Positions 61,906-64,000 of a stretch of 64,000 bases of DNA are shown one piece after another. This DNA is from Spirochaetales bacterium (lineage in GTDB: Bacteria > Spirochaetota > Leptospiria > Leptospirales > Leptonemataceae). Below the pieces are notes generated by a model. The model was not told where the DNA came from. It ran no database searches and worked only from the letters and a program-made list of their open reading frames with translations. Each line of letters begins with the position of its first letter. The stretch's first letter is position 1. The stretch spans positions 806,001-870,000 of the forward strand of contig JABTUL010000001.1 in the NCBI GenBank assembly GCA_015075425.1, given 5' to 3'. A program made the position numbers and the translations under genes.

Positions 61906-61944
61906 ATTTGTAAGCGTTTGGAAACACTCTTTCCCTGGAATTTG

Positions 61945-62442
61945 ATGCAACGCTGTGCTCGCTGTGGAGCCGATGTTCGCGTGGAACATGGCCGGGCCTG
62001 CCGTTGCAATGTCTGTGATTTCATACTATTTTTCAATGTGGGTGCAGCCACGGCGGCTATCGTTGAAGATGAGTCGGCCCGGCTGCTCTTTACCATTCGC
62101 GCAAAGGAACCGGCCGCCGGTTACCTGGATCTACCTGGCGGGTTCATTGAACCTGATGAGACAGCGGAGGAGGCGATTGCCCGGGAAATCAAGGAAGAGC
62201 TGAACGTTTCTGTGGAGAATCTGCGCTTCTTCTGCACGGTGCCCAATCGTTATTTGTTCTGCGGTGTTATCTACCATACCCTGGATGTTATCTTCCTTGG
62301 ATTTCTGGCCCGGGAAGCAGACCTGCAACCAGCCGATGATGTTACCGGTTTTGAGTGGCTAAAAAAAGAGGAGATCGATCTGGATCGCGTCGGACTTGAT
62401 GCGGCTCGGCTTGCTCTGCGGAAGTATTTAGATACCGCTTAA
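61945..62442 (+). CDS. NUDIX hydrolase with zinc ribbon
   Basis: The 165-residue protein has an N-terminal zinc ribbon (CARCGADVR, then CNVCDF) and a NUDIX domain with the box GGFIEPDETAEEAIAREIKE continuing EELNV. Zinc-ribbon NUDIX proteins include NudC-like decapping or NADH pyrophosphatases, but this one is shorter and lacks the NudC SQPWPFPxS region, so the substrate is open. The ATG at 61945 is preferred; a TTG at 61918 is within the terminator tail. It converges on the HAD gene with a 4-bp overlap. Confidence 0.88.
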   Translation: MQRCARCGADVRVEHGRACRCNVCDFILFFNVGAATAAIVEDESARLLFTIRAKEPAAGYLDLPGGFIEPDETAEEAIAREIKEELNVSVENLRFFCTVPNRYLFCGVIYHTLDVIFLGFLAREADLQPADDVTGFEWLKKEEIDLDRVGLDAARLALRKYLDTA

Positions 62443-63107
62443 TTCACGCTGCCAAGAGAGAGGATGATTTCTTGAGCCCGGGCCGGATCTGTGGCGCTGT
62501 AACGGGTGCCCTCGGGTGCTGTTTTTTCGTAGCCCCAGGCGGCCCAGATGAAGTGGGCGCCAAAGGCATCTGCGGCCAGCTTATCGGACGCGGTATCTCC
62601 CAGGTAAAAGCAGATGTCCTTCTGTGGATCAAAACCGGCCTCTGCCGTTATGGTTTGCATGGGCCCGGGCGAGGGTTTGCTCTCGGGAAAAGTATCACCG
62701 CCTATGATGTATTGAAAATAACGGGAAATTTTGAGTTCGTGCAGCAGTCGCCGGGACAATTCCTGCGGTTTGTTGGTGTAAAGGGCCATGACGGCATGGT
62801 TCTCAAGGGTGGAAAGCATGGTTTCAATGCCGGGGTAAAGGACGGTTTCTTCCGCTATGTAAGTGTGATAGATGGATTCATACGTAAGACGAATCTTCTC
62901 CCGGGTGGCCAGACTGGAATCTTTCGCCAGAATTTCTGAAAAACAGGACTCATACAGTTGATCCATGCCGCGATTGACGAAAGGTATCCATTCTTCGCGG
63001 ACGCCGGGCTGTAGATCAAATTCTTGCCGGGCCAGGAGAACGGAGTCGGCCATATCGGCGCGGCTGTCTTCGAGTGTGCCGTCCAGATCAGAAAATAGAA
63101 AAAGCAT
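62439..63107 (-). CDS. HAD-family phosphatase, phosphoglycolate phosphatase-like
   Basis: The 222-residue protein has HAD motif I in FSDLDGTLEDS (Asp7, Asp9), motif II YTNKP, a Lys in ESKPSPGPM (motif III) and motif IV YLGDTASDKLAA, with a helical cap at about 15-85. This is the Gph/PGP layout. The exact substrate is unproven. It is the third gene of the operon that begins with the histone gene, 3 bp behind the cupin gene. Confidence 0.85.
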   Translation of the reverse strand: MLFLFSDLDGTLEDSRADMADSVLLARQEFDLQPGVREEWIPFVNRGMDQLYESCFSEILAKDSSLATREKIRLTYESIYHTYIAEETVLYPGIETMLSTLENHAVMALYTNKPQELSRRLLHELKISRYFQYIIGGDTFPESKPSPGPMQTITAEAGFDPQKDICFYLGDTASDKLAADAFGAHFIWAAWGYEKTAPEGTRYSATDPARAQEIILSLGSVN

Positions 63108-63110
63108 GGC

Positions 63111-63461
63111 TCAGCCGGGAGAAAGTTCGGTGACTTTCCTTTCACCGGTGGTCGAACCTTTGTAAGCTGTGAATTCCTGATCGTTATGGGTTTTTACTTC
63201 ATGGGGGACGCCGGAAGGTATGAACAGGATGTCGCCTGCTTCGATGGTTACCGGCCCATCGGGAAAATGAAAGGTCGTGACGCCTTTGACGGCGCCACGA
63301 ATTTCAGGATAATCATGCGTATGCATACTGCGTTCAAACCAGGGAGGAATGGTCTGCAGATCATACGTCTGGTAGCCGTATTTTTCCAGCTCCCGCGCAA
63401 CAGACTCTGCCGTGGGTTTTTCTTTATACGGCCATTTGATGACTTTTACGCCTTCGGGCAT
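63111..63461 (-). CDS. Small cupin-domain protein
   Basis: The 116-residue single cupin has metal-ligand candidates in MHTHDYPEIRG (His, His, Glu) and GVPHEVKTH, with GDILFIPSG in the usual turn. The first 30 residues are a helical lead-in. It lies 5 bp behind the histone gene and 3 bp before the HAD phosphatase, in the same transcript. The function is unknown; sugar or small-molecule binding are options. Confidence 0.78.
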   Translation of the reverse strand: MPEGVKVIKWPYKEKPTAESVARELEKYGYQTYDLQTIPPWFERSMHTHDYPEIRGAVKGVTTFHFPDGPVTIEAGDILFIPSGVPHEVKTHNDQEFTAYKGSTTGERKVTELSPG

Positions 63462-63466
63462 GCGGA

Positions 63467-63655
63467 CTAAAAGTCGTAAGGGCGTAGAGTTGAGCGCTTG
63501 TTGTCTTTGGTCCGGTCCGTTGCTTCATCCAGCAACTTGTAGATTTTTTCATTGAGGGCTCCCATTGCATCGGAACTTACAATGCACCCCTTTTCCTTGA
63601 TGTATCCTTTGACTTTACTTGCAACAATGAGAGATTCTCTTTCTGTTTTTGCCAT
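63467..63655 (-). CDS. Bacterial histone-fold protein
   Basis: The 62-residue protein fits a single histone fold: helix 1 (ESLIVASKVKGYIKEKG), loop, helix 2 (SSDAMGALNEKIYKLLDEA) and then NKRSTLRPYDF. The latter corresponds to the archaeal RKTIKAEDI element with the Arg-Thr pair and the Asp clamp. It stops right after that Asp and one residue, so helix 3 is truncated, as in bacterial histones of Bdellovibrio and Leptospira. Such proteins form dimers that bind and bend or coat DNA. It heads an operon with cupin and HAD genes. The leader has an unusual SD-hairpin-ATG layout. Confidence 0.82.
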   Translation of the reverse strand: MAKTERESLIVASKVKGYIKEKGCIVSSDAMGALNEKIYKLLDEATDRTKDNKRSTLRPYDF

Positions 63656-63690
63656 AGGTTTGCCGGTTCGTTCGAACCACTCCTTTTTTG
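63656..63690 (-). promoter_or_regulatory. Histone gene leader with hairpin between SD and ATG
   Basis: Read on the minus strand, AAAAAAGGAG (GGAG at 63683-63680) is followed by T, then the inverted repeat GGTTCG-AA-CGAACC (63678-63665), then 9 bases to the ATG. The Shine-Dalgarno is thus 24 nt from the ATG, but about 10 nt if the 14-nt repeat folds out. No closer Shine-Dalgarno or in-frame start exists. It could alternatively be a DNA operator for a dimeric regulator, perhaps the histone itself. Confidence 0.6.
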
Positions 63691-63808
63691 GTTTTCAGCG
63701 ATCGTGATGCTAAACTACACGATAGTTTTCAACTGGATTATGGGAGGCAAGAGAAAAATCGCTATCTTTTGCGCTAAAAGCAGGTAAATCGGTCAGGAGG
63801 TTGGAATA

Positions 63809-64000
63809 TTGAAAGCCGGGATCATTGGTGGGGCAGGTTACATAGGCAGTCATGTGGTGCTGGAACTTCTTCTGGCCGGTCATGAGGTTGTTATTCTGGA
63901 CGATCTGTCAAGCGGCAGCCGGCTCAACATCCCCCAGGATGATGACCGCGTGTCTTTTATGGAAGGAGATTTCACCCTTCCCGACGTTCTTTCCGCCTTT
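63809..64000 (+). CDS. NAD-dependent epimerase, GalE-like (3' truncated by window)
   Basis: The first 64 codons run off the window edge. The TTG at 63809 has a clear CAGGAGG ribosome-binding site with 8-bp spacing. The sequence MKAGIIGGAGYIGSHVVLEL gives the Rossmann NAD-binding loop, and VILDDLSSGS is typical of UDP-sugar 4-epimerases of the GalE group. The rest, with the catalytic Tyr/Lys, is not visible, so GalE versus another extended SDR epimerase cannot be settled. It diverges from the histone operon across about 150 bp, where no further gene is seen. Confidence 0.82.
   Translation, partial: MKAGIIGGAGYIGSHVVLELLLAGHEVVILDDLSSGSRLNIPQDDDRVSFMEGDFTLPDVLSAF

Follow-up and report, generated by a model that had tools for sequence, protein, structure and literature searches.

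The histone locus and its leader

Close to its end, the window (the whole stretch of 64,000 nucleotides that was analysed) carries a short gene for a probable FtF histone. It is followed on the same strand by genes for a small cupin and a phosphatase of the HAD superfamily, and faced by a divergent galE-like gene (Table 1). The genome, 4.13 Mb in four contigs and 96% complete, belongs to an uncultured family of Leptospirales that is sister to Leptospiraceae. The histone ORF has 62 codons between an ATG at 63655 and a stop at 63467, exactly the limits given in the original prediction, to which the minus strand can now be added. Its product, MAKTERESLIVASKVKGYIKEKGCIVSSDAMGALNEKIYKLLDEATDRTKDNKRSTLRPYDF, has one cysteine and no additional domain. 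The histone stop codon is separated from the cupin gene by 5 nt and the cupin stop from the HAD gene by 3 nt.

Table 1. Features of the histone locus and its surroundings (positions in the window).
Feature	Position	Strand	Details
Nudix-type gene	61918-62442	convergent	overlaps the end of the HAD gene by 4 nt
HAD-superfamily phosphatase	62439-63107	-	222 aa; phosphoglycolate-phosphatase-like, below every equivalog cut-off
Small single-domain cupin	63111-63461	-	116 aa; Cupin_2 / AraC_binding; metal-site pattern HxHDxxE...H
Probable FtF (alpha3-truncated) histone	63467-63655	-	62 aa; predicted pI 9.1; 7.0 kDa
Divergent intergenic region, histone operon to galE-like gene	63656-63808		153 nt
Hairpin GGTTCGAACGAACC	63665-63678	-	perfect 5-bp stem, in the spacer that separates the AAGGAG site from the ATG
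Shine-Dalgarno-like AAGGAG	63680-63685	-	24 nt before the histone ATG; the sole such site there
galE-like NAD-dependent sugar epimerase, start	63809-64000	+	divergent; 324 aa with the part that lies outside the window

A consensus scan of the divergent intergenic region found no sigma-70-like promoter site. Looping out of the hairpin would shorten the distance from the Shine-Dalgarno-like site to the ATG to about 10 nt. Several relatives have a Shine-Dalgarno site directly 5' of the histone ATG, and the long spacing with a hairpin was seen in none of the relatives inspected. When spacers are shuffled, a comparable stem appears in about 5% of them, and the fold z-score of the wider region is -0.83. 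The hairpin was also considered as an operator repeated across the genome, a reading that was rejected on its single genomic site and unexceptional stem. It is best regarded as a curiosity of the histone leader.

Relation to the HLp histone of Leptospira

A phmmer comparison of the single histone sequence with proteins of solved structure aligns it end to end (residues 4-62) with HLp of Leptospira perolatii (9qt0, E 1.2e-18), with 35 of 59 residues identical. The match to HBb of Bdellovibrio is far weaker (E 0.011). A family profile built from 23 relatives gives the same order, with HLp at 1e-28, HBb at 6e-11 and the archaeal FtF histone HTkC (9f2c) at 3.9e-9. The resemblance to HLp is far above chance level, and on both measures the sequence clusters with bacterial FtF histones and not with the bacterial-dimer histones. 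Curated Pfam and NCBIfam models by themselves would miss the protein. The best Pfam match of the single sequence is Histone at E 0.064, under the cut-off, NCBIfam and PHROGs give no match to it, and a Pfam search with the aligned relatives returns weak histone-like matches only.

An AlphaFold model of the monomer, built from an 11-row alignment, has helices at residues 3-21, 28-51 and 59-61, with a short alpha2 and a one-turn alpha3. Its confidence is moderate (pLDDT 80, pTM 0.56; residues 1-7 low). When this monomer model was compared with the PDB by Foldseek, the HLp structures 9qt0 and 9qt1 ranked first (probability 1.00, rmsd 2.1 Å), followed by HBb, also with probability 1.00, and by HTkC (rmsd 1.9 Å, 29% identity in the fold match). 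HMfA and eukaryotic histones were among the lower-scoring matches. Sequence, profile and fold thus agree with the bacterial histone identity proposed in the original prediction. Its description of a single histone fold with an R-S-T...D element near the carboxyl terminus and a truncated third helix also holds: one fold occupies the 62 residues, the element is R54-S55-T56...D61 and the third helix of the model has three residues.

The contacts between dimers in HLp involve R49, S52, N53, R55, T61 and F63, of which R49, N53 and R55 are positions called conserved in FtF histones, and R55 and D62 form the RD clamp (PMC12701072). The equivalents here are R48, D51, N52, R54, Y60 and F62. The three FtF tetramer residues are thus kept (R48, N52, R54), while S52 and T61 of HLp are replaced by D51 and Y60. 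The clamp motif RxTxxxxD reads R54-S-T56-L-R-P-Y-D61, with D61 corresponding to D62 of HLp. Among the HLp residues that contact DNA, A13, S14, K15, K17, K21 and T57 are found as A12, S13, K14, K16, K20 and T56, while T56, T27 and G29 are changed to S55, V26 and S28. When the 23 relatives are aligned, N52, K53, R54, T56 and D61 do not vary and R48 hardly does.

The R48/N52 pair, which links the dimers, is absent from bacterial-dimer histones (PMC11390915), and the protein is classified as FtF because it has both residues. This also bears on the alternative that it acts like HBb/Bd0055 (8CMP, 8FVX), bending or coating DNA as a dimer that forms no tetramer. Those proteins share the alpha3-truncated histone fold and the RD clamp, and HBb is found by both Foldseek and the family profile. 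They lack the FtF R/N tetramer residues, however, and the phmmer and profile comparisons both favour HLp over HBb by a wide margin. The gene tree also sets the histone apart from HBb, at a deep fork with weak support. A dimeric mode of action is accordingly quite improbable. Two other histone types were considered. A DUF1931 pseudodimeric histone would carry two folds per chain and a ZZ histone an amino-terminal ZZ zinc finger; neither arrangement is found in this protein of 62 residues with its one fold and one cysteine.

HLp (PDB 9QT0/9QT1/9QT2; PMC12701072) is thus the closest known system, with the same fold, RD clamp, core tetramer residues and helix-1 lysines. It has 63 residues and is, like the present histone, encoded by a single-copy gene. 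HTkC of Thermococcus kodakarensis shares the fold and, by homology, the FtF architecture, but is archaeal. The gene is a real histone gene and a new member of the known FtF kind, very likely orthologous to HLp. The original prediction had placed it in a little-studied kind of protein, a view that has to be abandoned because the subfamily to which it belongs has already been studied as HLp. Only the conserved neighbourhood noted here and the apparent absence of HU go beyond the published picture.

The best explanation as a whole, to which a probability of about 0.9 is assigned, is an FtF alpha3 histone orthologous to HLp that would form tetramers and wrap DNA. By analogy with HLp, two handshake dimers would join face to face in a stable tetramer. 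This tetramer would bind DNA with no sequence preference, by way of K14, K16 and K20 in helix 1 and S55/T56 in loop 2. It would most likely wrap about 60 bp of DNA around its rim, as HLp does.

A conserved neighbourhood of galE, cupin and HAD genes

The order galE (divergent)/histone-cupin-HAD occurs in about 14 genomes of the family, the present one included, from at least 8 genera. It persists even in L024 (in our numbering of relatives), where histone identity is as low as 34%. The cupin gene is present in 15 of the 22 family genomes and adjoins the histone gene in all 15 (the contig of G019 ends inside it); G003 and G018 have a second copy elsewhere. The histone is found with no cupin in G009, G010, G012, G014 and G017. 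The conserved gene order supports the earlier placement of the histone at the head of an operon-like cluster. A three-gene operon is plausible, co-transcription being suggested by the spacing and by this order, and the histone gene would then lead a transcription unit that it shares with a metabolic pair.

In the Leptospiraceae-side genomes L092 and L093 the histone gene lies between an SMC-like gene and the gene for methionine aminopeptidase (MAP), the SMC-like/hlp/MAP layout reported for Leptospira (PMC12701072). This layout is not that of the present locus, whose neighbours are galE and cupin-HAD; the SMC-type match of the same genome lies about 610 kb away, at C1:1480482-1483145.

Outside Leptospirales, the same cupin is followed by the same type of HAD phosphatase in Nannocystis, other Myxococcota, Nitrospirota and unclassified MAGs, and no histone ORF was found in the retrieved flanks of these loci. 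The cupin was rejected as the mark of a histone-specific pathway on the loci that carry the pair with no histone (L054, L062, L065-L076, L079-L081, L083, L084, L087 and L088). The original prediction had suggested that the cupin and HAD genes could hint at the physiological trigger of the histone. Their occurrence in other phyla with no histone weakens this suggestion, as does the position of the Leptospiraceae histone beside the SMC-like and MAP genes. The pair is rather a module of its own, next to which the histone gene lies in this uncultured family, and as such does not reveal the trigger. What links the two is probably their co-localisation or a shared expression, rather than a pathway that modifies histones. 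No paper was found in a literature search on a histone with cupin and Leptospira.

The cupin is strongly conserved across phyla, with about 60-75% identity, and is followed there by the HAD phosphatase (L054, L062, L065-L088). Its HxHDxxEIR motif is reminiscent of acireductone dioxygenases (PF03079 E 0.0013, below the cut-off). A standard reading as such an enzyme was not adopted because no protein of this genome matches PF03079 over threshold.

A more elaborate scenario, in which an FtF histone was captured as the first gene of a cupin-HAD operon and the synthesis of a main chromatin protein thereby coupled to a metabolic signal, with HU replaced and the hairpin-bridged ribosome site tuning translation, is unlikely. 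Still less likely is the recruitment of the histone fold for local regulation of the cupin and HAD genes or of galE, for instance to repress its own operon, instead of a global chromatin role. The persistence of the gene order across genera and at low histone identity would fit such a regulator. Against it stand the family genomes that have the histone and no cupin, the cupin-HAD pairs of other phyla with no histone, and residues for DNA contact that are those of HLp, a non-specific binder. The Leptospira orthologue is moreover among the most abundant proteins of the cell and probably essential (PMC10627809).

Distribution of the histone and of HU in Leptospirales

One clear FtF histone copy is present in 20 of the 22 family genomes (profile E 9e-27 or better). 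G004 has a distant histone-like match only (8e-12), and the family profile detected no histone in G007, whose genome is 81% complete. This full-length conservation, which extends to Leptospiraceae, and the solved structure of an orthologue refute the idea that the ORF is spurious or a degenerate remnant, to which its shortness, the failure of curated Pfam and NCBIfam models to detect it and the unusual 24-nt spacing of its Shine-Dalgarno site might have pointed.

The nearest single match of the histone (71%) is in G024, a genome of family f2. A horizontal origin was considered on this ground and is disfavoured, as the gene tree parts family f1 from the f2 rows, with weak support. The tree is poorly resolved but consistent with vertical descent, which is the simpler reading because of this separation.

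HU was searched for with PF00216 at E 0.001 in 41 genomes. A match was obtained in 31 of them and none in the genome studied here. In most members of the family, the sole protein of this type is a divergent HU-like one of about 130-170 aa that begins with a Lys-rich segment. With the protein of G017 as query it was found in 14 of 19 family genomes searched, and again there was no match in the present genome. This Lys-rich-tailed protein (L089-L091, G001-G018) differs from the canonical HU found in sister families. The order-level relatives G022-G027 have strong HU matches, and several of them also carry an FtF histone.

L. interrogans and L. perolatii are both reported to lack HU, the latter being the genome that encodes HLp (PMC12701072). 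L. interrogans LA_2458 (PMC10627809) is likewise a Leptospirales protein of the FtF type, with one FtF histone per genome. For LA_2458 there are measurements of abundance (rank second) and of enrichment in the nucleoid, and attempts at deletion failed. As no HU-family protein was found in the present genome, its histone may serve there as a main general organiser of DNA, which agrees with what is stated for L. interrogans. This holds within the 96% completeness of the genome, which makes a missed HU gene possible.

These data would add an uncultured sister family to the range of the DNA-wrapping FtF histones of Leptospira. The SMC-like/MAP neighbourhood, which was proposed to be functionally meaningful in Leptospira, is not kept outside Leptospiraceae; a different conserved neighbourhood takes its place. 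The way in which HU, HU-like protein and histone are spread among close relatives provides a natural comparison on the question of when a histone can substitute for HU.
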